Shown: piece after piece, positions 48,945-64,000 of the stretch
How the letters are laid out: the number at the start of each line of letters is the position of its first letter
Position numbering within the stretch: position 1 is the first letter of the stretch
NCBI RefSeq assembly: GCF_000739715.2
Contig: NZ_BBJC02000005.1
Coordinates: forward strand, 32,480 to 96,479
Direction of reading: 5' to 3'
Length of the DNA stretch: 64,000 nucleotides
DNA from: Falsirhodobacter sp. alg1
GTDB taxonomy: Bacteria > Pseudomonadota > Alphaproteobacteria > Rhodobacterales > Rhodobacteraceae
The notes under the pieces: model-generated
Database searches by the model: none
What the model was told of the DNA's origin: nothing
Seen by the model: the letters and a program-made list of their open reading frames with translations, nothing else
Program-made: the position numbers and the translations under genes

Positions 48945-49739
48945 ATGTTCAAGAACGGGATGCGTATATCATCTGTTGCACTTATGCTGCTGGCCGGTTC
49001 TGCCATGGCAGCGATGGCGCAGGAAAAATTGACGGTCGGCGCCAATATCGGCAACGTGCCGTGGGAATTTCAGAATGAAACCGGCGATTTTGTCGGATTT
49101 GAAATCGATCTTGTCGCAGCTGTGGCCGAACGCCTCGGGGCTGAGGTGGAGACGGTGAATATTCCGTTCAACGGATTGTTTTCCGCCGTTCAGTCGGGCC
49201 GGATCGATATTGCCACATCTTCGATCACCATCACTGACGAACGGCTGGAATCGGTGACATTCGCCCAACCCTATTATGATAGCGATCAGTCGCTGACGGC
49301 CCTTGCCGGGGGGGCGACCTCGTTGGAGGATATGAAGGGCAAGGTTGTGGGCGTCGATACCGGATCCACCGGCGATATGTGGGCCACCGCCCAGCAGGAA
49401 ACCTATGGCTTTGCCGACATCCGCCGCTATGAAGGCCTGTCCCCCGCGATGCTGGATCTGACTGCGGGGCGGATCGACGGATACATTTCCGACATCCCGG
49501 CCCTGCAGTATTATGTGAAGGACAAGCCCAATCTGGCGGTCGTTGCGCGCATTCCGACCGGTGAGAAATATTCGATGATGTTCGCCAAGGATGCGGAGCT
49601 TGCAACCGAAGTGAACGCCGTACTGGATGATCTGAAAGCCGAGGGCGTCCTGGCGGAGCTGCACGAGAAATGGTTCGGGACGGCCCCCGATGAAGGGTCA
49701 TCGACTGTCACGATCCTGCCGATACCATCGCTGGACTGA
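48945..49739 (+). CDS. Amino-acid ABC transporter substrate-binding protein (family 3)
   Basis: A 264-residue periplasmic binding protein. Signal peptide at residues 1-26 (MAAMA, then QEKLTVG). WEFQNETGDFVGFEIDLVAAVAERLG, FNGLFSAVQSGRIDIATSSITITDERLESVTFAQPYYDSDQSL and GVDTGSTGDMWA are typical family 3 segments. The ligand-binding Arg of standard amino-acid binders lies in TDERLE. It probably binds an amino acid or carbamoyl amino acid, in view of the following enzymes. Confidence 0.93.
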   Translation: MFKNGMRISSVALMLLAGSAMAAMAQEKLTVGANIGNVPWEFQNETGDFVGFEIDLVAAVAERLGAEVETVNIPFNGLFSAVQSGRIDIATSSITITDERLESVTFAQPYYDSDQSLTALAGGATSLEDMKGKVVGVDTGSTGDMWATAQQETYGFADIRRYEGLSPAMLDLTAGRIDGYISDIPALQYYVKDKPNLAVVARIPTGEKYSMMFAKDAELATEVNAVLDDLKAEGVLAELHEKWFGTAPDEGSSTVTILPIPSLD

Positions 49740-49750
49740 GTGTTAACCAG

Positions 49751-49774
49751 AGGGCCTGCGGGTGCGCAGGCCCT
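49751..49774 (+). other. Intra-operon hairpin after the amino-acid binding-protein gene
   Basis: AGGGCCTGCG (49751-49760) pairs perfectly with CGCAGGCCCT (49765-49774) around GGTG, without a T tract. Confidence 0.7.
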
Positions 49775-49798
49775 GCCGGATGCCGGCAAGGAATATTC

Positions 49799-50470
49799 AT
49801 GGATATTTTCGACACATTTCTGAATGTGGAGGTGATGCAGCGAACCTTCCCGATGCTGATACGCGGTTTGTGGATCACGCTGCAGCTTGGTGCAGCAAGT
49901 ATCGTGGCGGGGTTAATCCTGGGGCTGCTGCTGGCGATGGCGCGATTGTACGGGGTGGCCCCGCTCCGGTTTCTGACGCGCCTCTATATCGATATCTTCC
50001 GCTCCATCCCGTTGCTGGTGCTGTTGATCATCGTCTATTACGCATTGCCGTTTCTGGGGCTGCGGCTGTCACCCTTCGCTTCGGCAATGGGGGCGCTGAC
50101 CCTCGTGTCTGGCGCCTATACGGCCGAGATATTCCGCGCGGGGATCGAGGCAATTCCAAAGGGCCAATTCGAGGCCTCTGCCGCCTTGGGCCTCAACCCC
50201 CTGCGCATGATGGCTGATATCATCCTGCCACAAGCGGTACGCATCGTCATTCCGCCGTTGACCAACAATTCGATCAATGTAGTCAAGGATACGGCGCTGG
50301 CGTCGGTGGTTGCCATGCCGGACCTGCTGAAACAGGCGACACAAGCACAGGCCCTTTCCGCCAATCCCACACCGCTGATCGTGGCCGCGATCATCTATAT
50401 CGCGTTCCTGTGGCCATTGGTGGCAGGTGTGTCGCGCATGGAACGGCGTTTTGCCGCAAGGAGACGCTAG
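49799..50470 (+). CDS. Amino-acid ABC transporter permease
   Basis: A 223-residue permease of the HisMQ family: [33 protein letters not shown] at the start and the EAA loop [62 protein letters not shown]. Only one permease is present, so it probably works as a homodimer. It ends one base before the ATPase start. Confidence 0.94.
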
Positions 50471-50471
50471 G

Positions 50472-51209
50472 ATGACCGCATTCGTCAGTATCAGGAATCT
50501 TCGTAAGTCATTCGGGACGTTTGAGGTTCTGAAGGGTATTGATCTGGATGTCGCCAAGGGTGAGGTGGTCTGCATCATCGGCCCGTCAGGATCCGGAAAA
50601 TCTACTCTGATCCGCTGTATCAATCGGCTGGAGCCGTTTTCCGCTGGCAGTGAAATCCGTGTGGACGGTACGGCCGTCACCTCGGGGCGCGCATTGGCCA
50701 AGGTGCGGGCAGAGGTGGGAATGGTTTTCCAGTCCTTCAACCTTTTTCCGCATCTGACTGTGCGGGAAAACATCATGATTGCACCGCGCAGGGTGCGGGG
50801 CACATCCCGCGCCGATGCCGCCAGACAGGCGGACCGCTTGCTGGAGCGTGTAGGCATCGCAAGTCAGGCCGATAAATACCCAGAGCACCTGTCCGGGGGG
50901 CAGCAGCAGCGTGTGGCCATTGCCCGGGCCTTGGCGATGGAACCGCAGGTAATGCTGTTCGACGAGCCGACCAGCGCGCTTGATCCTGAAATGGTGGGTG
51001 AAGTGCTGGACGTCATGCGCGATCTGGCGCGCACCGGCGTGACCATGATCGTTGTGACGCATGAAATGGGCTTTGCCTCGCAGGTCGCGGATCGGGTCAT
51101 ATTCATGGATGCCGGACAGATCATCGAACAGGGTCCGCCCGCCCAGGTTCTGTCGAACCCGCAAGAACCACGCACGCGCAATTTCCTTGGCGCTGTGCTG
51201 AATCATTGA
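50472..51209 (+). CDS. Amino-acid ABC transporter ATP-binding protein
   Basis: A 245-residue ATPase of the GlnQ/HisP type. Walker [12 protein letters not shown], signature [12 protein letters not shown], Walker [17 protein letters not shown]. Completes the three-gene importer. The following PLP-enzyme gene starts 11 bases later, so the operon runs on into catabolic genes. Confidence 0.94.
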
Positions 51210-51220
51210 AAAGAGACGTG

Positions 51221-52462
51221 ATGACACAATTGGACATGACCTATGTGCAATCCCAATTTCCCGGCCTGACCGACGATTGGGTGTTTTTCGACAATGCGGG
51301 TGGTGCGCAGATTGCCAAACCTGCCCTAGACCGCATGACGGAGTTCCTGACGCATCGGAACGTGCAGATCGGCGGAAGCTATGCAGTGTCGCAATCCGCT
51401 GCCGAGGCATTGCTCAAGGGGCGTCAGGCCGCTGCCACATTGGTTAACGCCGCCCGGGCAGAGGAAATCGTGTTCGGGGCCTCTACTACCGTGCTGATGG
51501 GCAATCTGATGCAGGCCATGCGCAGCCAGTTTTCCGAGGGCGATGAGGTCATCGTGACCATGGCGGATCATGAAAGCAATATCGGTCCGTGGACGCGCTT
51601 GGCGGAATTCGGGGTGACGATCAAGGTATGGCCGCTGAATGCCGAAACAATGGATCTGCAGCTCTCTGATCTGGAACCGCTGATGACCGACCGCACGCGG
51701 CTGGTTTGCGTTACCCATGTCTCAAATATTTTGGGCCAGGTGCATCCTGTGGGTGACTTCGCGCGTTTCATTCATGACCGGGGTGCCCTGATCTGTGTGG
51801 ATGCCGTTGCCTATGCCCCGCACCGGTTGATCGACGTTCAGGCATGGGATGTGGATTACTATGTCTTCAGTCTGTACAAAGCATATGGGCCGCATGGGGC
51901 GGTGATGTACGGCAAATATGACCTGCTGGCAGAGCTGGACGGCCTGTACCACTATTTCTACGGCAAGGACAAAGTACCGGGCAAGCTGGAGCCGGGCAAT
52001 CCAAGCTATGAAATGGCCTATGCCGCTGACGGGATTCTGGAATATCTGACCGGGCTGGCGCGGCATCACGGGGTAACGGGCGATGACCGCGCCTTGACCA
52101 AGGCCGCTTTCGATCTGATTACCGCACAGGAAGACCGGCTGACCGATCGCCTTCTGAAATGGATCGCGGCACGCAATGATTGTCGCGTGATCGGTACGGA
52201 TACGAATATGGACAGCAGGCGCGTTCCCACGATCTGCTTTCGCTTCGACGGTATCAATTCGGGAAAAATTGCACAGGCTATGGATGGATACGGCATTGCG
52301 ATGCGCTTCGGGGATTTCCACTCCCGTCGGCTGATCGAAGGGTTGGCCGAAGATCACGATGATGGCGTCCTACGTGTGTCCATGGTGCATTATAACACGG
52401 TGGAGCAGGTGGACCGTCTGACGGCGGCTCTGGCTGATATCGTATCGAAGGACGCCGCGTGA
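51221..52462 (+). CDS. Cysteine desulfurase-like class V PLP enzyme
   Basis: A 413-residue PLP enzyme. FFDNAGGAQIAKPALDRM is the start typical of the cysteine-desulfurase-like group, His117 in ADHESN stacks on PLP, Asp194 in CVDAVAYAPH is the ring acid, and Lys220 in SLYKAYGPHGA binds PLP. It has no desulfurase catalytic Cys loop that I can see, so a lyase or transaminase role is open. It is co-transcribed with an amino-acid importer upstream and a dihydropyrimidinase that overlaps its stop. The ATG at 51221 is chosen; a TTG at 51206 overlaps the previous gene. Confidence 0.85.
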   Translation: MTQLDMTYVQSQFPGLTDDWVFFDNAGGAQIAKPALDRMTEFLTHRNVQIGGSYAVSQSAAEALLKGRQAAATLVNAARAEEIVFGASTTVLMGNLMQAMRSQFSEGDEVIVTMADHESNIGPWTRLAEFGVTIKVWPLNAETMDLQLSDLEPLMTDRTRLVCVTHVSNILGQVHPVGDFARFIHDRGALICVDAVAYAPHRLIDVQAWDVDYYVFSLYKAYGPHGAVMYGKYDLLAELDGLYHYFYGKDKVPGKLEPGNPSYEMAYAADGILEYLTGLARHHGVTGDDRALTKAAFDLITAQEDRLTDRLLKWIAARNDCRVIGTDTNMDSRRVPTICFRFDGINSGKIAQAMDGYGIAMRFGDFHSRRLIEGLAEDHDDGVLRVSMVHYNTVEQVDRLTAALADIVSKDAA

Positions 52463-53862
52463 TGGATCTGGTCATTACCGGTGGAACCGTCGTCACCGCA
52501 TCTGATAGTTATGCCGCCGATATCGGTATCAGGGATGGCTGCATCGTGCAGATCGGGCAGGGGCTGGAAGGGGCCGAGCGGATTGACGCGACCGGCCTTC
52601 TGGTTCTGCCGGGCGGCATTGATGCCCATGTGCATCTGGATCAACCGACATCGGACGGGACCGTGATGGCCGATGGTTTTGCCAGTGGAACCCGCTCGGC
52701 TGCGGCGGGCGGCAATACGACGGTGCTGCCCTTCGCCCTGCAGATCAAGGGCCAGTCCCTGCGAAGCTGCGTGGAGGATTACCACCGCAAGGCGGATGGA
52801 AACTGCCATACCGATGTCTCATTCCACCTGATCGTGACGGACCCGACGCCCCAGGTTCTGGGGCAGGAGCTGCCTGCACTGGTTCAGGACGGCTATACCT
52901 CGTTCAAGGTTTTCATGACCTATGACGATTTGGTGCTGAATGACGCCGAATTGCTGGATGTGTTCGAGGTGGCCCGCCGCGAACGTGCCCTCGTGATGGT
53001 CCATGCCGAGGGGCACGATGCCATCAAGCATCTGACGCGGCGGCTGGAGGATATGGGCCGGACTGCCCCGTTCTATCACGGTCAGGCCCACGCCCAGATT
53101 GCTGAACGAGAGGCGACGCATCGCGCAATTAGCCATGCCCAGTTGATCGATGTGCCGATCGTCATTGTCCATGTATCCGGCCGGGACCCGATGGAGCAGA
53201 TCCAATGGGCACGGGCGCGGGGCCTGAAGGTTCACGCAGAAACCTGCTCGCAATATATCGCGCTGACGGCTGACGATCTGCGCGGCCTGAATATGGATTT
53301 CGAAGGGGCAAAATACGTCTGTTCTCCGCCTCCCCGCGATGCCGATAGCCAGGCGGCAATCTGGCAGGGCCTGCGGGATGGTACCTTCGACATCTTTTCC
53401 TCCGATCACTGCCCGTTTCGGATCGATGGTACGGGCAAGGATACCCCGCGTGCGCGAACATCGTTCAAATGGGTGCCAAACGGCATTCCGGGGGTCGAGA
53501 CGCGCCTGCCGATCCTGTTTTCCGAAGGTGTGTCGAAAGGGCGGATCAGCCTGCAACGCTTTGTGGCGCTGACCTCGACCAATCCAGCGCGGCTTTATGG
53601 CCTCTATCCCCAGAAAGGCAGTATCGCGATTGGGGCTGATGCCGACCTGACGCTATGGGATCCGACCCTTACACGGCCGATCCGTCAGACGGCGTTGAAC
53701 CACGGCTGCGATTACACACCTTACGAAGGCATGGATATTACCGGCTGGCCAGTTCGGACGATCCTGCGCGGGCAGACGATTGCCGTGGATGGCAAGGTGG
53801 TCGGCACGCCGACAGGCGGGCATCTGGTACGTGGAACGAGTGAGGCCTTTTCCCCGGAATAA
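52462..53862 (+). CDS. hydA: Dihydropyrimidinase / D-hydantoinase
   Basis: A 466-residue cyclic amidohydrolase that opens dihydrouracil or 5-substituted hydantoins to N-carbamoyl (ureido) acids. Zinc ligands: DAHVHLD, carboxylated Lys in SFKVFMTYD, His in VHAEGHDA, His in IVHVSGRD, and Asp in SSDHCPF. The overall pattern (TSDGTVMADGFASGTRSAAAGGNTTVLPF) is typical of the DHPase/hydantoinase group. The ATG overlaps the previous stop (TGATG). The product fits the M20 carbamoylase encoded at 46.8 kb. No hydantoin racemase or pyrimidine reductase (PreTA) lies in the window. Confidence 0.92.
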   Translation: MDLVITGGTVVTASDSYAADIGIRDGCIVQIGQGLEGAERIDATGLLVLPGGIDAHVHLDQPTSDGTVMADGFASGTRSAAAGGNTTVLPFALQIKGQSLRSCVEDYHRKADGNCHTDVSFHLIVTDPTPQVLGQELPALVQDGYTSFKVFMTYDDLVLNDAELLDVFEVARRERALVMVHAEGHDAIKHLTRRLEDMGRTAPFYHGQAHAQIAEREATHRAISHAQLIDVPIVIVHVSGRDPMEQIQWARARGLKVHAETCSQYIALTADDLRGLNMDFEGAKYVCSPPPRDADSQAAIWQGLRDGTFDIFSSDHCPFRIDGTGKDTPRARTSFKWVPNGIPGVETRLPILFSEGVSKGRISLQRFVALTSTNPARLYGLYPQKGSIAIGADADLTLWDPTLTRPIRQTALNHGCDYTPYEGMDITGWPVRTILRGQTIAVDGKVVGTPTGGHLVRGTSEAFSPE

Positions 53863-53867
53863 CGCCT

Positions 53868-55034
53868 TCAGTCCGGTAAATGTCGCAGAACATCCTGCAC
53901 AGGGGCCGCCTTCAGCTCTGCCAATGATGACATGCCCATCAACTGCAGTGTGATGCGTATCTCGTCCGCCAGCAGGGTGAACAGGCGGTCCACTCCCCAC
54001 GCCCCTTCGGCCGCCACGGCCCATGCAAACGGGCGTCCCATCAGAACGGCATCGGCACCAAGCGCAACCGCCTTGATGATATCTGTGCCCCGTCTGAAAC
54101 CGCTGTCCACCATCAGCTCCATATCGGGGCCTAGCGCCTCCCTGATCGGTCGGACAAGCGAGATCGTGGAACAGCCATGATCCAGTTGCCGCCCACCGTG
54201 GTTCGAGATGATGATCCCATCAGCGCCGCTGCTTCGGGCGATCGCGGCATCACGCGGATCCGAAATGCCCTTTATGACCAGGCGGCCCGGCCAAAGGTCT
54301 CGTAACGCCTTCACCTTGTCCCATGTCAGATCCTTGTCCAGCCGGGCGGACAGATTTGCAGCCTGTGCAAGTGCACCGCGGCCAAATTCGGGCCGGTCAT
54401 TCACCAGTTCCACCCCCGGCATGCCATTCCGCAGCAGATCGATCGACCACCGTGGTCGGCGCATGAACTGCAGCGCGAGGGCGGGGGTTATATGCGATAC
54501 GCTGCGGAACTGGTTTCTGACATCACGTTCCCGTACCGAAGTGATGGCGGTATCCACGGTCAGGAAAATGGTTTCCACCCCCGCATGTCGGCAAGCTTCC
54601 AGATAGCCGGCATTTACCTCAGGGTCCCTGTCCAGATACAACTGGAACGCCAGTGTTTCCCCAAGCTGCGGCGCAAGTGAGGAAACCCCCTTTATCGAAA
54701 AGGTAGACAGGCCGAACGGAACGCCATGCCTGCGTGCCGAGAGTCCTACAAGCTGGTCACCATCGCGACGATACAGCCCCATGAATCCGACCGGGCCGGG
54801 AAAGAACGGCAGCGCTTGGATCCTGCCCAGATACGTCGTTGACAGATCCGCCTCGACCAGATTGCGCAACACCCGTTGGCGAAGGGCGTAACGGTCGAAA
54901 TCCGTTCGGTTGCGTGCCAGCGTGGTTTCGGAAAATGCGCCACCATCTATGTAATCGGCAAAAATCTTCGGCAGCCGGCGACGCGCGGCCCGCTGGAAGT
55001 CGTTGCAGTTGATATAGTGGCGGTCTTGAGGCAT
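53868..55034 (-). CDS. FMN-dependent alpha-hydroxy-acid oxidase/dehydrogenase (LldD/mandelate dehydrogenase-like)
   Basis: A 388-residue FMN TIM-barrel enzyme that oxidises 2-hydroxy acids to 2-oxo acids. IFADYIDGGAFSETTLARNR is the family start. The active-site base is His in SNHGGRQLDH, with Lys in VIKGI and the FMN phosphate loop DSGFRRGTDIIKA. The substrate is not evident. It is the last gene of an eight-gene minus-strand set and lies 24 bases after the kinase gene; the HisD-like enzyme in the same operon could supply its 2-hydroxy acid. It ends five bases from the convergent dihydropyrimidinase. Confidence 0.92.
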   Translation of the reverse strand: MPQDRHYINCNDFQRAARRRLPKIFADYIDGGAFSETTLARNRTDFDRYALRQRVLRNLVEADLSTTYLGRIQALPFFPGPVGFMGLYRRDGDQLVGLSARRHGVPFGLSTFSIKGVSSLAPQLGETLAFQLYLDRDPEVNAGYLEACRHAGVETIFLTVDTAITSVRERDVRNQFRSVSHITPALALQFMRRPRWSIDLLRNGMPGVELVNDRPEFGRGALAQAANLSARLDKDLTWDKVKALRDLWPGRLVIKGISDPRDAAIARSSGADGIIISNHGGRQLDHGCSTISLVRPIREALGPDMELMVDSGFRRGTDIIKAVALGADAVLMGRPFAWAVAAEGAWGVDRLFTLLADEIRITLQLMGMSSLAELKAAPVQDVLRHLPD

Positions 55035-55058
55035 GTGCCGATCCTGTCGCGCGCGAGG

Positions 55059-56351
55059 TTAGGGCCGGGTGGGGCGAATACTGTCGAAAAACCGGGTCAT
55101 ATGATCCTGACCATCGACCGGCACAGACCCGCAGGTCACAGCTTGGATCAGCCCGATACCGGCGCTTTGCGGGTTATGCCGCCCCCCTTCGGCCCCGGCA
55201 CGAAGATTCATCACCAGTGTCGGGCACAGGAATAGCGCAAGCCGGATGACACGCTCCCAATCCGCGGGCAGCAGTTCGTGATCCTGCAGAGTTTGCAGCC
55301 ATGGCCGCCAATAGCTGGAGGCTTTTACGTCCAGAAGCTTTTCCCGCAGCGTGCCGATATGCCAATCGGTCGTTAATGAAAGTACGCCATCGGTATAATC
55401 CGCTGTGACGTGCCACCTGTCCGGCACCATAGGGCTGTCATATAGCCATAGCGGATGAGCGAGCGTGTTGTGGAAGGTCGATTTCACCTCGGCCAGCAGC
55501 GCGGGAACATCCTCGCCGGCAAAGGCGGGGTCGAAGAATGCCAGATGGTCGGCATCCTCCCCCCTCTCGTACCAGACGTTGGCATTATGCGCGTCGCCAT
55601 GGGCCACGATGCCGCCCGCATCCGCAAGCCGTTCAGGCAAAAGTCGTTCATGGGCCGCATCGAACAATTCGGCTAGCGTGTGGGCGTATTGGCGGCCATT
55701 CAGCCGCAGCGTGGCATGCGCCAGATCCTTCCATGGTAGGCTGACGCCCGGCAGGGAAAAATCCTTGTCCACGTAGAAAGAGGCCAGCCGCCCCGCCGGA
55801 TAGGCGCCCGTGGTCGGATTGACCAGCCGTTCGTGGAACAACCGGTGGATCGGTTCGGCTCGCGATTGGGCAGGCCGGATCGTATGCAATGTATCCCGCG
55901 CCACCTGAAGCAGTTTCGCATTCAGTTCGGCCTCGGCGGCAAGGGCGCGGCTCATGGCTGCGGGGTCCGGTGCCAGATCCAGCTCTCGCAGGACATCCGA
56001 AAATCGCGGGTCATTCCGCCGACGATAGACAAGTACCTGATCGCCCGTCAGGGTCGAGGACAGGATCGGCTGATCCACCGGCAGTCCGGCCCGCGCAAGA
56101 ATGTCGGCACGGTACAGCTCACCATGCATTTCCTCCTCGCCCTCTTCCTGATGGAACTTGAAAAAGCACGGGCCGTGTTCGCAAGTGAAAAATCCGTTCA
56201 GCGAATTCAGCGAATACTGATCGGCATTGATCTTCATCCCTTCTGTCCTGATTGCGAAAAGATCATTCAGGAATGCGGTCAGCATCGTTTCGGCCCTTGC
56301 AGGATCCTGCAGGGCAACAGCGCGTATTTCGGCGGTACGGGACAGGGTCAT
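55059..56351 (-). CDS. APH-like small-molecule kinase
   Basis: A 430-residue protein of the aminoglycoside-phosphotransferase/choline-kinase fold. The catalytic loop is VAHGDAHNANVWYERG (His-Gly-Asp...Asn) and the metal-binding Asp lies in FFDPAFAGEDVPAL. GPCFFKFHQEEGEEEMHGELYRADIL may hold the ATP-binding Lys and Glu. No homologue of known substrate comes to mind. The ATG at 56351 follows the hisD-like stop after one base, so it belongs firmly to the same transcript. It would phosphorylate a hydroxyl on the imported compound or a derivative. Confidence 0.78.
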   Translation of the reverse strand: MTLSRTAEIRAVALQDPARAETMLTAFLNDLFAIRTEGMKINADQYSLNSLNGFFTCEHGPCFFKFHQEEGEEEMHGELYRADILARAGLPVDQPILSSTLTGDQVLVYRRRNDPRFSDVLRELDLAPDPAAMSRALAAEAELNAKLLQVARDTLHTIRPAQSRAEPIHRLFHERLVNPTTGAYPAGRLASFYVDKDFSLPGVSLPWKDLAHATLRLNGRQYAHTLAELFDAAHERLLPERLADAGGIVAHGDAHNANVWYERGEDADHLAFFDPAFAGEDVPALLAEVKSTFHNTLAHPLWLYDSPMVPDRWHVTADYTDGVLSLTTDWHIGTLREKLLDVKASSYWRPWLQTLQDHELLPADWERVIRLALFLCPTLVMNLRAGAEGGRHNPQSAGIGLIQAVTCGSVPVDGQDHMTRFFDSIRPTRP

Positions 56352-56352
56352 A

Positions 56353-57678
56353 TCAACCTTTGAGGTATGTCTGGCGGGCCTCACCAACCGCATTGGCGTG
56401 GCTGGAAAATCCTTCGTATTCGGCAAGGGTCCGGGCGGCATGCGCCAGTTCCGGATAGGCCTTGGCCGTGACATACCCGACAGAACTGCGGCGGATGAAA
56501 TCGGTCACCGAGAGCGGGCCGTACGTCCGGGCGCCGCGGGATGTCGGAAGAACGGCATTCGGGCCAAGGCAGAAGTTGCCGATCGAGACAGGTGTATGCG
56601 GCCCCATCAGGATCTCGGCGGCGGCGGTGATCATGCCCAGATGCTCGAACGGTTTTTCCGAAAGAAGCTGCAGGTGCTCCGGCGCATAATCGTTGATGAA
56701 TGCATAGGCTTCTTCCAGCGTTTCCGTCAGCAGAATGCCCCCCGATTTGCCACAGAGGACTGCCTTTGAAAACGCGACCCGCTGCTCGGTCATGTTCGCC
56801 CAATGGTCGGGCAGGGCCGCGAGGGCCTGTTCGGCAACGCGGCGCGAGGAGGTGACCAGCCAGGCCGAACTGTCCGGTCCGTGCTCGGCTTCGATCAGCA
56901 GATCAAGGGCTGCAAGCCCCCCGTGTACGGTATCATCGGCAAAGATGATCGATTCCGAAGGGCCGGCAGGAAGGCCGGGATCGATCTGACCCGCCAACAA
57001 ACGCTTGGCCGCCACCACCCAGGGGCTACCCGGCCCCACAATTTTGTGGCAGGGCCTGACAGTATCCGTGCCGAAGGTGGCTGCGGCAACAGCCTGGGCG
57101 CCCCCCGCCTTGTAGACGGTTTTCACGCCGGCCAGACGGGCCGCAACCAATGTGGCTGCATCCACCTTGCCCTCTTTGGTGGGCGGGGTGAATATGGCCA
57201 CATTCGGGACGCCGGCAACAACTGCCGGAACGCCGGTCATCATCGTAACGGATGGAAACGAGCCCTTGCCGCGGGGAACGTAGAGTGCGACCGACTCGAT
57301 GGGAAGGAACCGGTCCCCCGCGAAGGCACCGGGGCGGATTTCTTTCAGCGTCATCGGTTCGGGAAGCTGCTCTTCGTGAAATGAGCGAATGTTGGCGATA
57401 CCGGTTTTGATAGCGGCAATCACCTCCGGGTCCACAAGGGTGAAAGCCTCATCGAATTCGGCCTCGGTCACCTGCAGTGTATCGGCGGTCAGGCCGACTG
57501 CCCCGTCAAGTTCCGTGCCGAAACGCACCAGCGCCGCGTCTCCCTCGGTCCGCACGGCCTCGAGGATGGCGGGGACCTTTTCCAGAAACATCGACATGTC
57601 GGTTTCAGAGCGCTGCATCAGGGCCGCACGCTCAGAAATGGAAAGATCGGCGAGGATCTTGAAGTTTACGTCGCCCAT
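56353..57678 (-). CDS. HisD-superfamily dehydrogenase, not the histidine-pathway enzyme (HpsN-like candidate)
   Basis: A 441-residue NAD-dependent dehydrogenase of the histidinol dehydrogenase superfamily, which oxidises a primary alcohol to the carboxylate in two steps. GVPAVVAGVPNV, AGGAQAVAAATFGTDT, AGPSESIIFADDT and NDYAPEHLQ are shared with HisD. Differences from E. coli-type HisD: GPGSPWV (215-221) replaces GPGNAFV, and at the zinc site Glu263 and Asn368 stand where HisD has Gln259 and Asp360, while His266 and His427 are kept. The neighbours are a Pot-type importer, a kinase and a hydroxyacid oxidase, not his genes. DHPS-3-dehydrogenase (HpsN) is a known HisD-like relative, so a sulfo- or other diol substrate is possible. 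ATG at 57678 has AGAAGG upstream. Confidence 0.85.
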   Translation of the reverse strand: MGDVNFKILADLSISERAALMQRSETDMSMFLEKVPAILEAVRTEGDAALVRFGTELDGAVGLTADTLQVTEAEFDEAFTLVDPEVIAAIKTGIANIRSFHEEQLPEPMTLKEIRPGAFAGDRFLPIESVALYVPRGKGSFPSVTMMTGVPAVVAGVPNVAIFTPPTKEGKVDAATLVAARLAGVKTVYKAGGAQAVAAATFGTDTVRPCHKIVGPGSPWVVAAKRLLAGQIDPGLPAGPSESIIFADDTVHGGLAALDLLIEAEHGPDSSAWLVTSSRRVAEQALAALPDHWANMTEQRVAFSKAVLCGKSGGILLTETLEEAYAFINDYAPEHLQLLSEKPFEHLGMITAAAEILMGPHTPVSIGNFCLGPNAVLPTSRGARTYGPLSVTDFIRRSSVGYVTAKAYPELAHAARTLAEYEGFSSHANAVGEARQTYLKG

Positions 57679-57723
57679 ATCAGCATACCTTCTGGAAAGT
57701 TCTGGACGCAAAAGGTCCGGTCG

Positions 57724-58521
57724 TCATTTGGATTTCAGAAAAACTTCGAGGCCGACCAGCTTATCAAGCAGCCAGATCGCCAGAAGCGCGATGAGAATGA
57801 AAACAACCGATACCGCCGCAAGATCGGGCGTGATGATTGAGCGGATGGAATTATAGATCTGCACGGGCAAGGTAACGGTTCGCGCATCCGTCAGCAGCAG
57901 GCTGACCAGAAATTCGTTCATTGCCAGGATGAACATGAGCAAGCTGCCGGTAATCACCCCCGGCATCACGGCCGGCAGCGTCACGTGCAGGAATGTCTGT
58001 ACCCGGCCTGCGCCACAGCTTTGGGCCGCCAGTTCCAGATCCGGGTCCAGTAGCACCGCCGAGGAGGAAACCGACCAGACGATAAACGGCAGGTTGATCA
58101 CCGCGCAGGCCACTCCCACCGGCCATAGGCTACCCAAAACCCGCCATTCACCGAATACCAGCATAAGTCCGATCCCGGACCCGATCAGCGGTACGGTGAA
58201 CGGCAGTAGCAGGTAAACCTGAATAGCGCCCTCATACCGCAGGCGAAAGCGGGACAGGGCAAGCCCGGCCAGGGTACCCACGGGCAAGGCAACTGCCGTA
58301 CAGATCAGGGAGACCACAAGGGATCGCAGGAACGCCTGTTGCAGATCGCGGGCCATGGCGAGTTTGGCATACCACTTCAGCGAAAGCCCATCGGGGGGGA
58401 AGGCAATGATGTTCCCCGAAGTGAAGCTGGCCCCCAGCACGACAATCGTGGGCAAGGACAGGGTAAGCAACGCGATCCAGACGAGGGTCCAGATGGTGAT
58501 GCGCTGGCTTTGTGAAATCAT
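57724..58521 (-). CDS. Pot-type ABC transporter permease (PotC-like)
   Basis: A 265-residue permease with six hydrophobic segments. The EAA loop is AAQSCGAGRVQTFLHVTLPAVMPGVITGSLLMFILAMNEFLVSLLL, and FIVWSVSSSAVL precedes it. Partner of the next permease, overlapping it by four bases. Confidence 0.93.
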   Translation of the reverse strand: MISQSQRITIWTLVWIALLTLSLPTIVVLGASFTSGNIIAFPPDGLSLKWYAKLAMARDLQQAFLRSLVVSLICTAVALPVGTLAGLALSRFRLRYEGAIQVYLLLPFTVPLIGSGIGLMLVFGEWRVLGSLWPVGVACAVINLPFIVWSVSSSAVLLDPDLELAAQSCGAGRVQTFLHVTLPAVMPGVITGSLLMFILAMNEFLVSLLLTDARTVTLPVQIYNSIRSIITPDLAAVSVVFILIALLAIWLLDKLVGLEVFLKSK

Positions 58522-59465
58522 TTGCGCGCCCCCATCGACAGGGTTCCTGCGCCGAACACCATGAACACCAACCCGACGATCAGTGAACCGACCGCCACCA
58601 GCAATAGCGCAAGTGCTGCCCCGAGCCCCTGATCGGCAGTTCGGAAAAACTGATCGTAAATCGCATTTGCTACAAAATCCTGTGATCCGCCGCCCAGCAT
58701 CGCCGGAACGGCAAAATCGGTCAGGCTAAGGGTGCCGACCACCAGTCCGGCACCCACCAATCCCGGCTTTGCCATCGGCAGGATCACGTGCCACAGCGTC
58801 TGCAGCCAGTTGGCCCCCAGAGATCCGGCAGCAATTTCGGTTTCCGTCGGAATGGCGGTCAGGGCAGGGGCCAGCATGAGCACTGCGAACGGCAGCATGT
58901 ATTGAACCAGGCCGAAAATGACCGCGGGATAGTTGAACAGCAGCCGTACCGGACCGATACCGACCAGCCCGAGGACGTCGTTTACCATACCGCCATTGCC
59001 CAGAAGGATCAGCCAGCCATAGGCGCGGACCACCTGCCCGATGAAAAACGGAAGAAAAAGCGCAATCAGCAGGGCTTTGCGGACCTTGGGGCTTTGCGTC
59101 CGTACCATCGCATAGGCGTAGGGGAAGGCAAAGCAGAGGGTAATGGCCGTTGTCAGGGCCGCGCCTAGCAAAGATCTCCATGCGACCTTGAAATAAACGC
59201 TTGAACCGAGGGCTTTCTGGAAATTGTCCAGTGACCAGTTATCCGATGGCAGATAGGTTGCGGTATCCAACGTACGCAGTGAAGCGTCCGCAATCTGTAT
59301 CAGCCCCAGCACCAATATTCCCACAAGCATTAAAGCAGGCATGATGAAGAGCCAGCCGGTGTATTTCGACAGGCGGCGCGGCCAAAGAAAATCTGCAATC
59401 GCCTCAGCCATATCCATGATGCGCCAGCGCAACGGGTAGCGGAAATCGGGGTTCGTCTCTGGCAT
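58518..59465 (-). CDS. Pot-type ABC transporter permease (PotB-like)
   Basis: A 315-residue permease. It has a cytoplasmic N terminus of about 40 residues, then six membrane segments. The ATPase-contact loop is TEIAAGSLGANWLQTLWHVILPMAKPGLVGAGLVVGTLSLTDFAVPAMLGG. It overlaps the PotC-like gene (ATGA). Confidence 0.93.
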   Translation of the reverse strand: MPETNPDFRYPLRWRIMDMAEAIADFLWPRRLSKYTGWLFIMPALMLVGILVLGLIQIADASLRTLDTATYLPSDNWSLDNFQKALGSSVYFKVAWRSLLGAALTTAITLCFAFPYAYAMVRTQSPKVRKALLIALFLPFFIGQVVRAYGWLILLGNGGMVNDVLGLVGIGPVRLLFNYPAVIFGLVQYMLPFAVLMLAPALTAIPTETEIAAGSLGANWLQTLWHVILPMAKPGLVGAGLVVGTLSLTDFAVPAMLGGGSQDFVANAIYDQFFRTADQGLGAALALLLVAVGSLIVGLVFMVFGAGTLSMGARK

Positions 59466-59524
59466 CGTGGGACCGTTTCAAACACCGCAGTTGGGGAATG
59501 CGGTGGCTTTTCTTAGGAGGAACA

Positions 59525-59548
59525 GGCGGCGCGCAAAGGTGCGCCGCC
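59525..59548 (-). other. Intra-operon hairpin after the Pot-type binding-protein gene
   Basis: GGCGGCGC-GC pairs with GT-GCGCCGCC (eight base pairs plus a C-G and a G-T) around an AAAG loop. A second hairpin (CACCGCA/TGCGGTG, 59483-59489 and 59499-59505) follows before the permease start. Both lie between the binding-protein gene and the permease gene on the minus strand. Confidence 0.65.
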
Positions 59549-59560
59549 AATGGGTGGGCG

Positions 59561-60670
59561 TCAGCCTTGCATGATCTCTTTGAACTTGCTGAACCATTCG
59601 GACTCGTTCTGGACCTGTACCTGTGCGGAGATACGGATCAGATGCGCAAAATCCTCGGGCTTGGTGGGATAGGACGGATCATCGACCAGATCTTCGGGCG
59701 GGGTAAGACCCGGCACGACACCCGGCAGCCCCAATCCGTCCAGCCAGACCTGCTGTGCCTGTTGGGTCAGAGCGAAATTGACGTATTCCTTGGCCCAGTA
59801 AAGCTCGTTTTCCGGCAGACCTTTCGGAATCCACAGCCCGTCTGTGTCGAACTTGCAGCCCTCTTCTGGTACGACCCATGCGATTTCCAGGCCGTTTTTT
59901 CTGGCCTCGCGCGCATTTGTCGAAATGGTGCAGGCAATGTCGATCTCACCGTTCTGGAACCAGTTGGTGAAATCGGGGTCTTCGCCCAGCAACGGGTCCT
60001 GCTCTTTGACCTTGGCAATGAAATCCCAAGCGGCTTGCATGTTGTCCGGAATATCTTCCAGCGAACCGCCACCCGCAACCTGTGCCGGAAAGTGGAATCC
60101 TATTCCGTCATTGTAGAGTGCGATCCGGCCTTTGAACTTCGGATCCAGCAGGGCCGTCCAGGATGTCGGGGGGCCGTCGGGGAATGCCTCGGGGCGATAG
60201 GCCAGTACGTAGACATAACCATAAGTGTTGATGATCGGATATCCTTCCAACCCGACCGGTTTTGCCAGATCGGTGGTATTGGCCAGATTGGAAACGTCCG
60301 ACAGATCCTCGGTCACGCCGCGCAGCGCCGACTTGGTGGCATTCGTGGTCGTATCCCAGTTCACATGGATCGGGGGAATCCGCCCTTGGGCGACGGCAGC
60401 CCACAGCTTGGGCTGGATCTCGTTATCCTCGGTCAGATCATGGCGAACGGCAATGCCCGTTGCTTCGGTAAAGGGATCGGAGACGCCTGCCTTCAAGGCC
60501 TCTACCCATGATCCACCCCATGCGCGCACGATGATTTCGCGCGGTTTTTCAGGTGCGTTCTGTGCCATCAGGCGGCGCGTGGAGGCGCCGGTGATCAGAA
60601 GGGCTGCGCCGGCAGTTGCACTACCGCACAACATTGCGCGACGCGAAAGCCGGATGTGGGAATTTGCCAT
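59561..60670 (-). CDS. Pot-type ABC transporter substrate-binding protein, Tat-exported
   Basis: A 369-residue binding protein of the PotD/PotF-related family 1. The N terminus SRRAMLCGSATAGAALLITG is a twin-arginine signal (RLSRRAML). IIVRAWGGSWVEALKAGVSDPFTEATGI and WVKPEE-like INTYGYVYVLAYRPEAFPDGPPTSW are typical. The ATG at 60670 is preceded by AAGGAG. Tat export implies folding in the cytoplasm. The ligand is unknown; Pot-type systems carry polyamines, but relatives carry other small compounds such as 2-aminoethylphosphonate or sulfonates. Confidence 0.92.
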   Translation of the reverse strand: MANSHIRLSRRAMLCGSATAGAALLITGASTRRLMAQNAPEKPREIIVRAWGGSWVEALKAGVSDPFTEATGIAVRHDLTEDNEIQPKLWAAVAQGRIPPIHVNWDTTTNATKSALRGVTEDLSDVSNLANTTDLAKPVGLEGYPIINTYGYVYVLAYRPEAFPDGPPTSWTALLDPKFKGRIALYNDGIGFHFPAQVAGGGSLEDIPDNMQAAWDFIAKVKEQDPLLGEDPDFTNWFQNGEIDIACTISTNAREARKNGLEIAWVVPEEGCKFDTDGLWIPKGLPENELYWAKEYVNFALTQQAQQVWLDGLGLPGVVPGLTPPEDLVDDPSYPTKPEDFAHLIRISAQVQVQNESEWFSKFKEIMQG

Positions 60671-60702
60671 GATCGTCTCCTTGTTGAACGGCGCGCCGTT
60701 TT

Positions 60703-61851
60703 TCACATGTTTTGGGGCGGGAATATCAGCAGATCGCGGGCATTCCATCCGATTGTCACCGCTGCTCCCCGATCATGGGGGGCATGCCCAAGCGGGTCAT
60801 GGTGATAGATCTGCAGCGCCGTTGCGAGGCCCGGCACCGCAACGAAATAGAGCAAACGCTCTCCTTCGAAAATCGTATCGGTGACGGTGCCCTGAAGGGT
60901 GGTATCGCATGAAGCAAGATCGGCCGCAGTGGCGCTGATGCGGATCTGTTCGGCGCGGATCGCCCCTTGTGCCACAGAGCCAAGGGACATGTTCCGGGGC
61001 AACGTGCCTGCACAGGAGAAGCCGTTCACCGATAGTCCGGTTTCAGTGACCTCTCCCTTCAGGAAGCTGGAAACTCCGATGAAATTCGCGACGAAAGGGG
61101 AGGCGGGCTTGCGGTACATCGCGACCGGATCCGCATGTTGCTGGATGCGGCCCTGGTCCATCACGATGATCTCGTCAGATACGACCAGCGCTTCGCGTTG
61201 ATCATGGGTCACATTGATCGTGGTCACACCCAGCTCTTTCTGTATCCGACGAAATTCCAGCTGCATCTCCTCGCGCAGTTTCCGGTCCAGCGCGGCAAGG
61301 GGCTCGTCCAGAAGCAACAGGTCAGGTTCGAAGACAAGCGCACGGGCGATCGCCACGCGCTGTTGCTGTCCGCCCGACAGCTCGTGGATCCTGCGCGTGC
61401 CGTATCCCCCAAGCCTGACAAGATCGAGATAGCGCGCAACACGTTCGGGAATATCCTTCGGATTGAAACGGCGCATCTTCAGGGGAAAGGCGACGTTTTC
61501 ATTCACCGTCATATGCGGAAAAAGGGCCAGTTTCTGAAATACCATGCCGATCGTACGCTTATGCGGCGCAACGGCATCAGAGGCCTTTCCCCCTATCAGT
61601 ATCTGCCCCCGACTAGGCTTTTGAAACCCCGCGATCATCCGCAGCAATGTGGTTTTTCCCGAACCTGACGGACCGAGAATGGTCAGGAACCGACCAGCCT
61701 CCAGAGAAAAACTGGCACTTTGTACCGCCAACGGGCCATTTCCAAAATCCATGTCCACATCCCGGACCAGAACGGCGGCATGGCGTTCGCCATCGGCTGG
61801 CTGTGCTGCGGGCATATTCACGATGTTCGTCTCCGGTCGGTGGTGCGTCAT
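60703..61851 (-). CDS. Pot-type ABC transporter ATP-binding protein (PotA-like)
   Basis: A 382-residue ATPase. Walker A GPSGSGKTTLL, signature [12 protein letters not shown], Walker B LLLLDEPLAALDRKL, and a C-terminal TOBE domain. The start is uncertain: ATG at 61851, GTG at 61821 with GGAGA at good spacing, or ATG at 61815. It reads into the binding-protein gene 32 bases later. Confidence 0.92.
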   Translation of the reverse strand: MTHHRPETNIVNMPAAQPADGERHAAVLVRDVDMDFGNGPLAVQSASFSLEAGRFLTILGPSGSGKTTLLRMIAGFQKPSRGQILIGGKASDAVAPHKRTIGMVFQKLALFPHMTVNENVAFPLKMRRFNPKDIPERVARYLDLVRLGGYGTRRIHELSGGQQQRVAIARALVFEPDLLLLDEPLAALDRKLREEMQLEFRRIQKELGVTTINVTHDQREALVVSDEIIVMDQGRIQQHADPVAMYRKPASPFVANFIGVSSFLKGEVTETGLSVNGFSCAGTLPRNMSLGSVAQGAIRAEQIRISATAADLASCDTTLQGTVTDTIFEGERLLYFVAVPGLATALQIYHHDPLGHAPHDRGAAVTIGWNARDLLIFPPQNM

Positions 61852-61940
61852 TGTCGTCTGGCAGGCTACGGATGCGGACGGGTATATGTGAGCATCTGAC
61901 CATCGGCCAGCCTCGGCAGCGCAATAATCAATGTTATCGG

Positions 61941-62693
61941 CTAGATCGAGGCAAGATAACCGCCATCGACCCCGATACATTGGCCCGTGACATATGCAGA
62001 GGCATCTGAGGCAAGGAAAACAACCGTGCCGACCACATCATCATTGTTACCGAAACGGCGCTGAGGGATTTTATCCAGCATCGCCTTTGTCCATTGCGGG
62101 TCTTCATAGAAGGCTTCGGTCATTTCTGTCCGGAAATAGCCGGGGGCAATCGCATTCACACGCAATCCGCGTGGCGCCCATTCTGCGGCAAGCGCGCGGG
62201 TCATTCCTAAAAGCCCCGATTTGGAGGATCCGTAGGGTACAGCCGTTGGTACCCCGACATAAGAAGTAAGGGAGCAGAGATTGATGATTGCGCCGCTGCC
62301 TCGGGTCAGCATGGTCTTTGCAACCGCCTGTGTGGTGAAGAAGCTGCCGCGCAGGTTTGTATCGATGATCCGGTTCCAAAGGGCGGGAGTAACATCCTCG
62401 GAGGGGCTGATCTGCTCGATCCCTGCATTATTGACAAGAATGTCGAATGGTCCCTTGCCGTTCAGCGCAGGCACTATCAGGTCCGTTTGGCTTTGATCCA
62501 GTGCGATACATTCCACAGACCGGCCCGTTGCACGGATTTTTTCGGCCGTTGTGCCAAGGGCGTTCAGTGTGCGAGCGGTGATCGTGATATCTGCCCCTGC
62601 CTCTGCCAGCCCGACGGCCATTGCTTGCCCCAGCCCGCGGCTGGCCCCGGTCACAAGTGCATGACGGCCTGCCAAGGAAAACAGGTTTGGCAT
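61941..62693 (-). CDS. Short-chain dehydrogenase/reductase
   Basis: A 250-residue classical SDR. Cofactor loop TGASRGLGQAMA at about 15-26, NNAGIEQI, catalytic Ser in LCSLTSYVG, Tyr-x-x-x-Lys in YGSSKSG, and a C-terminal YVTGQCIGVDGGYLASI. The ATG at 62693 is preceded by AAAGGA. It is the first gene of the eight-gene minus-strand set and so is probably a catabolic dehydrogenase or epimerising enzyme for the imported compound. Confidence 0.92.
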   Translation of the reverse strand: MPNLFSLAGRHALVTGASRGLGQAMAVGLAEAGADITITARTLNALGTTAEKIRATGRSVECIALDQSQTDLIVPALNGKGPFDILVNNAGIEQISPSEDVTPALWNRIIDTNLRGSFFTTQAVAKTMLTRGSGAIINLCSLTSYVGVPTAVPYGSSKSGLLGMTRALAAEWAPRGLRVNAIAPGYFRTEMTEAFYEDPQWTKAMLDKIPQRRFGNNDDVVGTVVFLASDASAYVTGQCIGVDGGYLASI

Positions 62694-62740
62694 GGTATTT
62701 CCTTTCATCAGCCTGTTGGCCACCAAGGCAAAGCATTCTT

Positions 62741-62759
62741 TACAAGTATATATATTGTA
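62741..62759. promoter_or_regulatory. AT-rich near-palindrome between the SDR and HisC-like genes
   Basis: TACAAGTATATATATTGTA: 19 bases with one mismatched pair, in the 123-base divergent promoter. Several GntR and other regulators bind TTGTATACAA-like sites, so this is a good operator candidate for the whole cluster. No regulator gene lies next to it in the window. Confidence 0.5.
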
Positions 62760-62816
62760 TTTAGCGAGGGGCGCATCTGTTAATTGCGTTTTCCGCAGAA
62801 TAGGAGCCTTGTCGAT

Positions 62817-63935
62817 ATGGCCGCGAACCCCACAATCCTGCGTCCTGAACTGACAAATCTGGCACCTTATAATGCTGGTCTGACACTGGCCGAAGTCGCG
62901 GCACGTAAAGGGGTCACCCGCGTGGCCAAGCTTGGATCGAATGAAAACCCAGCAGGCACGGATCCGGCCGTGGTGGATGCACTGGAAAACGCGATGCGAT
63001 CGATCGGGGCCTATCCGGATCCGGTCGGGCGTAATCTCGTCGCGCGGCTTGCTGAAAAGCATGGCTGGCCACAGGACAAATTCGTTCTGGGAAACGGGTC
63101 GGAGGATTTGCTGGCAGTACTTGCCAGAGCGGTCCTTCGTCCGGGGGACAAGGTGGTCACGCTTTACCCTTCATTTCCACTGCACGAAGATTACGCCCGT
63201 CTGATGGGTGCAGAAGTCATCCGCATCGGATTGGACGCTGAGGGTATGATCGACCTGCCTGCCCTGCTGGACGCGGTGGCGAAGCCGGTTCGGCTGGTCC
63301 TGTTTGCCAATCCTATGAATCCTGCCGGTGTTTGGCTTCAACCTGCGGATCTGCGCCGCGTTCTGGCTGCAGTACATCCGGAAGCAATAACATGCGTGGA
63401 TGAAGCCTATCATGAATATGCCAGTGGACCGGACTATGTCTCTGCCGAGGAGCAATTGGCGACATATGCACGCCCCCTGGTCATTTTGAGAACCTTCTCC
63501 AAGGCATGGGGACTGGCAGGATTGCGTATCGGCTATGCAATGACGAATTCGGACCAGCTCAGACAGGGCTTCGATCTGGCACGCACACCGTTCAACGTGA
63601 ACCTGATGGCACAGATTGCTGCCGAAGCTGCATTGGACCATCCTGATGCGGTGGACCGCGCAGTGGCCTTGGTCAGGATCGAACGAACGCGTGTTGCAAA
63701 AGCAATTTCGGATATGGGGATGCGCGTTCTACCCTCGCGTGGAAATTTTCTGTTCTTCGATGCAGGCCAGCCCTCTTCCATGATTGCAGAAAGGTTGCTC
63801 GATCACGGAGTGATCGTGAAGCCGTGGCGACAGGAAGGGTATGAGAGCTGGCTGCGCGTTTCGATAGGGTCGATCATGGATAACGATCAGTTTCTGATGG
63901 CCTTGGCCCGGATCAGAGAAGCTGCCATCGGATAA
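62817..63935 (+). CDS. HisC-like PLP-dependent aminotransferase
   Basis: A 372-residue class I/II aminotransferase close to histidinol-phosphate aminotransferases. LGSNENPAGTDPAV, AYPDPVG, NGSEDLL, FANPMNPAG, DEAYHEYA, the PLP lysine in RTFSKAWGLAGLRIGYA and the carboxylate-binding Arg in WLRVSIGS are all visible. The ATG at 62817 has AGGAG upstream. HisC-like enzymes often act on other 2-oxo acids, aromatic or acidic. It diverges from the SDR and importer operon with only 123 bases between and probably acts in the same pathway. Confidence 0.9.
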   Translation: MAANPTILRPELTNLAPYNAGLTLAEVAARKGVTRVAKLGSNENPAGTDPAVVDALENAMRSIGAYPDPVGRNLVARLAEKHGWPQDKFVLGNGSEDLLAVLARAVLRPGDKVVTLYPSFPLHEDYARLMGAEVIRIGLDAEGMIDLPALLDAVAKPVRLVLFANPMNPAGVWLQPADLRRVLAAVHPEAITCVDEAYHEYASGPDYVSAEEQLATYARPLVILRTFSKAWGLAGLRIGYAMTNSDQLRQGFDLARTPFNVNLMAQIAAEAALDHPDAVDRAVALVRIERTRVAKAISDMGMRVLPSRGNFLFFDAGQPSSMIAERLLDHGVIVKPWRQEGYESWLRVSIGSIMDNDQFLMALARIREAAIG

Positions 63936-64000
63936 AACCGGTCGTGGCGGCTACATTGAATCGTGGTTCCGCTCTCCGGTGGGGGTGAAGTGGGTAACGA
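63936..64000. other. Window end, no feature identified
   Basis: 65 bases after the aminotransferase stop. Short frames on both strands are open to the edge, but nothing can be assigned. Confidence 0.3.

Follow-up and report, generated by a model that had tools for sequence, protein, structure and literature searches.

We wondered what purpose a HisD-like and a HisC-like gene might serve in Falsirhodobacter sp. alg1 when both stand beside the genes of an importer and the genome encodes a second copy of each. The locus lies in a stretch of 64,000 nucleotides (positions 32,480 to 96,479 of contig NZ_BBJC02000005.1), hereafter the window. It comprises eight minus-strand genes for a short-chain dehydrogenase/reductase (SDR), the four parts of a Pot-type ATP-binding cassette (ABC) importer, the HisD-like enzyme, a kinase-like protein and a flavin mononucleotide (FMN)-dependent hydroxyacid enzyme, with the HisC-like gene facing them across a divergent promoter. 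Current annotation speaks of a histidinol dehydrogenase, a histidinol-phosphate transaminase and a hypothetical protein, and these biosynthetic names hide an operon that is widespread on rhizobial plasmids, in roseobacters and on Klebsiella and Pantoea plasmids. A preliminary description of this DNA had chained the enzymes into a route from an alcohol through a 2-hydroxy acid and a 2-oxo acid to an amino acid, and had named dihydroxypropanesulfonate as a substrate that would fit. We find a conserved operon with a HisD-superfamily enzyme of a separate class and read it, tentatively and with slightly less than even confidence, as an upstream branch of histidine utilisation that would convert an imidazole alcohol via the 2-hydroxy acid and the 2-oxo acid to histidine.

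Is the HisD-like protein simply another histidinol dehydrogenase? It scores 419 bits against NCBIfam TIGR00069 (hisD; cut-off 243.8), which we take as superfamily membership only, is 37.8% identical to the HisD of the same genome, and matches HisD with 242 bits versus 175 bits for HpsN. We aligned 95 HisD-like proteins (93 distinct), sorted by their best match among the window protein, one HisD and one HpsN; 87 came from the 89 kinase loci L015-L103, seven from plasmid loci and one from L142, where the kinase was not looked for. In positions numbered by what we take to be the residues of E. coli HisD, the zinc ligands Gln259 and Asp360 are replaced by Glu and Asn in all 95 proteins, giving a Glu/His/Asn/His set in which the two His ligands (His262 and His419) are retained, and His367 is Ala in 93 and Cys in two. 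The catalytic Glu326/His327 pair and Glu414 are kept. The Gln, Asp and His are conserved in 22 of 22 proteins whose best match is HisD, in three HisD references, in six HpsN-best relatives and in the HpsN reference. The cluster-type proteins also share a loop G-K-G-S/A-F (95 of 95). In a tree of 55 rows, cluster, HisD and HpsN proteins fell into three groups, each set off from the rest by a single branch (support 100/100, 94/74 and 100/100, respectively), with long branches flagged as meeting. The preliminary description had looked to a grouping apart from true HisD, which the tree gives, and to a second hisD and hisC in the genome. Both are present, HisD at C2 (558 bits versus 443 for the window copy) and HisC at C1 (311.5 bits, over the cut-off, versus about 279.5). 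A true histidine-biosynthesis HisD is ruled out by the exchanged zinc ligands and His367 together with the separate tree group. By the criteria tested here, the protein belongs to a third HisD-superfamily clade that is neither HisD nor HpsN, and because both ligands are exchanged in every member, a different metal-bound group on the substrate is suggested.

We then considered how far the gene set is conserved. A contig scan gave 206 relatives, of which the best 80 kinase-bearing loci were kept, mainly from Hyphomicrobiales and Rhodobacterales. Gene presence was called by tblastn at identity thresholds of our choosing on flanks of up to 10 kb, several loci ending at contig edges. The kinase gene is accompanied by the HisD-like gene in 78 of the 80 loci, by a zinc alcohol dehydrogenase of the medium-chain type (MDR) in 75, by the SDR gene in 72, by HisC in 38 and by the FMN gene in 30; SDR, HisD, MDR and kinase genes occur together in 69. 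Pot genes were found in 56 to 58 loci. By importer type, 58 loci are Pot, 16 are Ssu/taurine-type, six have neither and none has both. Four loci whose flank has no HisC contain an aromatic-type aminotransferase gene (L088 was run against NCBIfam, the rest assigned by similarity). The usual order is SDR, PotA, D, B, C, HisD, MDR, kinase, with an optional HutC-like gene before the kinase gene, an optional FMN gene after it and a divergent HisC. The MDR gene thus sits between HisD and kinase in relatives; it is missing from the window copy and likewise from five of the 80 loci. Plasmid copies in Klebsiella and Pantoea run SsuABC-HisD-kinase-MDR-SDR, and two Klebsiella plasmids add genes for GhrA-type and FMN hydroxyacid enzymes. 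The smallest version is seen in two relatives (genomes of about 2 Mb), where the stretches read contain just the kinase and HisD-like genes of the set. Within the class, 10 of 385 genomes, the window's included, turned out to carry the kinase gene, and in all nine others a HisD-like gene lies within the same stretch (up to 20 kb). Phylum-wide, seven of 398 genomes were carriers, all of the window's class, a sampling that is shallow because plasmids yielded Klebsiella, Pantoea and Pseudomonas carriers outside it. Conservation across families rules out chance adjacency. The operon of catabolic type that had been proposed is therefore real and conserved, common to soil, plant-associated and marine bacteria and in part plasmid-borne.

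A clue to its role lies in the regulators. Three GntR genes were run against TIGR02018 (HutC; cut-off 220): the representatives of two relatives scored 287 and 280, and the gene beside the window's HisC scored 248. A similar HutC-type regulator gene is found in 48 of the 80 loci, and the one in Agrobacterium is annotated hutC by NCBI. The pattern TGT[AC]TA[GT]ACA, whose shape we take to be that of a HutC operator, occurs 97 times in 1.74 Mb of 89 cluster loci versus 2.8 expected from base shuffles, a post hoc count, as the pattern was widened after the first sites had been viewed. Of these sites, 90 lie at most 330 bases upstream of HISC, SDR, POTA, HISD, HutF, HutI or KIN. Stretches upstream of SDR carry the operator in 40 of 78 cases versus 0.01 expected. 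Counting HISC as well, 49 of the 78 loci with an SDR gene have a strict operator ahead of SDR or HISC, and the clusters of S. meliloti, Agrobacterium, Pantoea and Paroceanicella contain two sites apiece. ATGTATAGACAT is the candidate operator sequence for the HutC-type regulators, and in many carriers the operon appears to be controlled in the manner of the genes for histidine breakdown.

Hut genes themselves lie on the flanks of 16 of the 80 loci in several arrangements (representatives were verified as equivalogs), and among enzyme genes outside the core set, HutF is the one seen most often next to a cluster (13 of 89 loci). HutH is over its cut-off in 48 of 49 carrier genomes (drawn from 50 of the 80 loci, L051 left out) versus 96 of 385 in the class and, within the class sample, in 7 of 10 carriers versus 89 of 375 others (Fisher p 0.003, uncorrected for kinship and genome size). 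In longer stretches, hut genes are contiguous with SDR/HISC in Ciceribacter (L043/L175) and likewise in Pseudogemmobacter bohemicus (L026/L190), which is closely related to the window's genome and where a strict site lies between SDR and HISC. The operator is common to hut genes in most sampled Hyphomicrobiales carriers: in the first hut set, the upper part of the HutH list and all Hyphomicrobiales, it is present in strict form at hutF/hutI in 20 of 20. With a second set added, the strict site stands at hut genes in 22 of the 36 loci sampled, the carrier genomes numbering 49 in all. Judged by these predicted sites, hut genes clearly share the operator in Hyphomicrobiales and do so weakly in the second set described below. 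The published HutC regulon differs in its members, as the account of HutC in PMC5343134 names hut enzymes and histidine transporters, and the word histidinol does not appear in it. Taken together, HutC-type regulators and frequent hut linkage with a new HisD class are a better-supported description of the operon than a sulfonate substrate.

From the HutC-type regulators and the hut linkage, we infer that histidine is the amino acid produced and that the substrate therefore bears an imidazole side chain. The importer, of Pot or Ssu type, would take up a small polar molecule, most likely an alcohol with an imidazole group. A 1,2-diol, a ketol or a triol is probable, of the imidazole-propanediol, imidazole-acetol or imidazole-glycerol kind. 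The HisD-like enzyme would oxidise the CH2OH of this compound to COOH with nicotinamide adenine dinucleotide and zinc, and the SDR and the zinc alcohol dehydrogenase would handle C2 stereoisomers or a C2 carbonyl, in the way that HpsO and HpsP deal with both dihydroxypropanesulfonate enantiomers. The FMN enzyme would then convert the 2-hydroxy acid to the 2-oxo acid, from which the HisC or aromatic-type aminotransferase would yield histidine for degradation by the Hut enzymes. The alcohol-to-amino-acid chain of the preliminary description thus looks plausible from the SDR, MDR and HisD trio, the FMN oxidase, the Klebsiella D-2-hydroxyacid dehydrogenase and the aminotransferases; its sulfonate substrate is the part that finds no support.

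Several observations weigh against this imidazole route. The window's SDR/HisC promoter has no operator at up to one mismatch. It carries AAGTATATATAT, which is operator-like at two mismatches and which we do not claim as an operator. With no site in its own promoter, the window copy is not counted as a member of the HutC regulon. No strict operator at all was found in 23 of the 78 SDR-bearing loci, including four of the five nearest relatives (L024-L028), nor in the two Klebsiella stretches scanned. A second hut set of 16 loci, mainly Rhodobacterales and thus on the window's side of the tree, has a strict site at hut genes in two, a one-mismatch site in seven further loci and none in seven, and for this reason we slightly lowered our confidence in the imidazole route and in its imidazoleglycerol variant discussed below. 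Taxonomy and genome size confound the excess of HutH in carrier genomes. A search of the window's genome gave no match to HutH or urocanase and nothing above the HutF cut-off, HutH is missing too from the minimal carriers G084 and G199 (HisD and kinase only), and an MDR ortholog was not found in the window's genome (best match 28% identical). The kinase has no step to perform in a simple imidazole route. One locus has a tryptophan 2,3-dioxygenase-family gene after the kinase gene (L075, 11332-12282). Because Hut enzymes, the MDR ortholog and the operator are missing from the window's genome, the pathway there would be incomplete or of other use: its product may do no more than spare histidine synthesis, or the pathway may be in decay or have a different purpose. 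Separately, three second-set hut loci (L187, L189 and L198) have the one-mismatch variant AAGTATATACAT in common, too little for an operator claim beside the window's AAGTATATATAT.

In a rival reading, HutC-type control would reflect shared descent or nitrogen regulation only, and the operon would degrade a polar diol or amino alcohol without an imidazole group to another amino acid. The lack of Hut enzymes in the window's genome and in two minimal carriers, the hut operator mostly not shared in the second set, a kinase without a place in the simple imidazole route, accessory amide hydrolases (amidase, DMFA2-like) in Ssu-type loci and an expression pattern in S. meliloti that goes with the NtrC regulon, as far as the published account consulted extends, all speak for it. 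We regard this explanation as quite possible, if on the doubtful side, given the same operator in the hut promoters of the whole first set, the frequency of HutF beside the clusters and the contiguity of hut genes with SDR/HisC in several lineages. Plain uptake of L-histidinol, with the HisD-like protein as a second histidinol dehydrogenase feeding histidine to Hut, would draw on the same histidine link and on the TIGR00069 match with its retained catalytic residues (Glu/His, Glu414/His419). It is unlikely, since all 95 proteins depart from HisD at two zinc ligands and at His367, and histidinol would need no SDR, MDR, FMN enzyme, HisC or kinase.

The dihydroxypropanesulfonate chain through sulfolactate and sulfopyruvate to cysteate starts from a genuine resemblance. 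According to the parts of the two reports consulted, HpsN is a four-electron HisD-superfamily dehydrogenase that works with the SDR HpsO and the medium-chain dehydrogenase HpsP, often encoded in one operon with a transporter and a regulator (PMC11382572, PMC11131964), and the trio in our clusters is of the same kind. HpsN is described there as having a motif G-R-Y-A/S-H and sulfonate contacts through His126 and Lys353, with a D352A variant that is inactive (PMC11382572). The motif and His126 are absent from all 95 cluster proteins, and the positions of Lys353, Asp352 and Gln248 are Phe, Asn and Glu. Tree and bit scores likewise part the cluster proteins from HpsN. The clusters further differ from the HpsN system in their extra kinase and aminotransferase and their HutC-type regulators, and no sulfo-lyase gene is among their recurrent neighbours; no Xsc was over cut-off in the window's genome, where SuyAB and CuyA were not searched for. 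The sulfonate substrate named in the preliminary description is thus not borne out, and we consider it highly improbable.

The kinase-like protein required separate attention. At E 0.001, its open reading frame (ORF) matches nothing in Pfam or NCBIfam. Across 34 aligned rows K65, HGDAHNAN and DPAFAG are invariant, the second of which we take to be the kinase motif HxDxxxxN. A model built from these 34 rows (mean predicted local distance difference test, pLDDT, 90.8) replaced one built from six (pLDDT 72.7). In a Foldseek search with it, the best match was methylthioribose kinase (E 1.3e-05, template modelling (TM) score 0.43 by query and 0.47 by target), and the nearest solved folds were methylthioribose kinase and aminoglycoside phosphotransferases (APH), with TM scores of 0.27-0.43 by query and at most 0.53 by target among the 50 matches listed. 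The modelled protein thus resembles the APH/methylthioribose kinase superfamily in fold and in its catalytic Asp/Asn motif, and differs in its moderate fold similarity and in having no family model; phosphotransfer is predicted. A homoserine-kinase-like reading (an Agrobacterium homoserine kinase was fold match 7) was set aside, as no homoserine gene recurs in neighbour groups of at least four loci.

The kinase would fit best, speculatively, if the acid carried a ring-adjacent hydroxyl. Such an acid would arise if the starting compound were imidazoleglycerol, a dephosphorylated histidine-biosynthesis intermediate. The new HisD class would oxidise its CH2OH to give imidazoleglycerate, the kinase would phosphorylate the ring-adjacent hydroxyl, and the phosphate would leave aided by the imidazole ring; the resulting enol would give imidazolepyruvate, which HisC would turn into histidine for Hut. 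HisD-like enzyme and kinase would then form a two-enzyme core, from imidazoleglycerol to imidazolepyruvate, and scavenge histidine intermediates. We consider this variant improbable; if true, it would be a new route by which intermediates that leak from histidine biosynthesis are salvaged, and the exchange of zinc ligands would suit the enzyme to its new substrate.

The same operon is found in S. meliloti 1021, as the hisC3-hisD2 region of pSymA (SMa0387-SMa0402; our locus L111), full with MDR, HutC-like gene, kinase and FMN gene; the window copy differs in having no MDR. The identification of L111 with the hisD2 region is supported by a hisD2-linked site at pSymA 214937-214957 given in the portion of PMC12542648 consulted, about 470 bases upstream of the L111 HISD match (pSymA 215427). 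As far as the sections consulted go, hisC3 (SMa0387), SMa0391-0396, hisD2 (SMa0398) and SMa0402 (GntR) are down 8- to 24-fold in a tolC mutant along with ntrBC and hutU/G/H, and the authors suggest an NtrC effect and give the function of the transporter as unknown (PMC2912261). SMa0392 is reported as a target of the AbcR1/2 small RNAs in the part of PMC8844928 consulted. In the open PMC literature, we found no paper that gives this operon a function. As S. meliloti 1021 has a full copy, the substrate can be sought with ordinary mutants. The operon is now tied to a defined regulon in many carriers, sequence marks for the third HisD class are at hand, and attention is drawn to a kinase family for which Pfam and NCBIfam have no model.

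The preliminary description had placed eight minus-strand ORFs and one plus-strand ORF in this part of the window, and all were recovered at those places (Table 1). Its 123-base gap between the SDR and HisC genes is exactly 123 bases after the start codons of the kinase, HisD-like, PotD, PotA, SDR and HisC genes had been refined by comparing relatives. Its family names agree with Pfam for eight ORFs (FMN_dh, Histidinol_dh, BPD_transp_1 twice, SBP_bac_8, ABC_tran, adh_short_C2 and Aminotran_1_2), the APH-like kinase being the one left without a match. The kinase ATG lies one base after the stop codon of the HisD-like gene, and the regulator gene is convergent with HisC and mostly outside the window.

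Table 1. Features of the locus in window coordinates, with the evidence for each assignment.
Feature	Position	Strand	Evidence
FMN-dependent alpha-hydroxyacid oxidase/dehydrogenase family, optional cluster member	53868..55034	-	PF01070 375 bits; LldD-type NCBIfam models below cut-off; 30/80 loci
Kinase-like protein, predicted APH/methylthioribose-kinase fold	55059..56351	-	no Pfam/NCBIfam family; invariant motifs in 34 rows; model; Foldseek
HisD-superfamily dehydrogenase, third clade	56353..57678	-	Histidinol_dh match, alignment, tree; zinc ligands Gln->Glu, Asp->Asn
PotC-like permease	57724..58521	-	PF00528; PotC model 115 bits, below cut-off 326
PotB-like permease	58518..59465	-	PF00528; PotB model 133 bits, below cut-off 348
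PotD-like solute-binding protein	59561..60670	-	PF13416; 44.7 bits to PotD-type chains; twin-arginine leader by eye only
PotA-like ATPase	60703..61815	-	PF00005, PF08402; TIGR01187 331 bits, below cut-off 355.6
SDR dehydrogenase, superfamily of HpsO	61941..62693	-	PF13561 186 bits; 72/80 loci
Divergent promoter	62694..62816		HutC-type operator absent at <=1 mismatch; a single operator-like site when 2 are allowed
HisC-like class I/II aminotransferase	62817..63935	+	PF00155; TIGR01141 about 279.5 bits vs cut-off 276.6; PRK05166 488 vs 540
HutC-type GntR/UTRA regulator, 3' end	63951..64000	-	gene runs 706 bases past window end; L013 16431-17186; TIGR02018 248.1 vs cut-off 220

On the plus strand of the window (48945-53862), genes for an amino-acid-type ABC transporter, a VC1184-like class V aminotransferase and a dihydropyrimidinase-like protein (the last assigned by eye) converge on the FMN gene. 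They were rejected as cluster members: relatives of the aminotransferase and dihydropyrimidinase genes occur in none of the 80 loci, and the ABC ATPase in five at a threshold of our choosing.

Some neighbours of the clusters elsewhere deserve mention. A DMFA2_C (N,N-dimethylformamidase-like) gene adjoins seven of the 16 Ssu-type clusters (L052, L056, L060, L074, L080, L093 and L102; Pfam was run on L093) and none of the 58 Pot-type ones, and an amidase gene stands next to the Ssu genes in three related loci (L015-L017; Pfam was run on L016). Near the copy in Pseudomonas silvicola (L145), whose cluster genes are themselves annotated in pieces, the annotation also shows amidase pieces. Beside the cluster of one Klebsiella plasmid (L112, 16642-23345) are genes for a class III aminotransferase, a glutamine-synthetase-family protein and an N-formylglutamate amidohydrolase, perhaps of another amine or imidazole pathway. 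The kinase and HisD-like pair of L021 and L022, from genomes without HutH, of about 2 Mb, adjoins class I glutamine amidotransferase-like and threonine ammonia-lyase-like genes (families were run on L021). Among the HisD-superfamily sequences, the Ser237 position is Thr in all six HpsN-best relatives, and L137, L138, L140 and L141 form a group sister to HpsN with the motif G-K-[YF]-P-M in place of G-R-Y-A/S-H, hence without His126 and possibly of another specificity.

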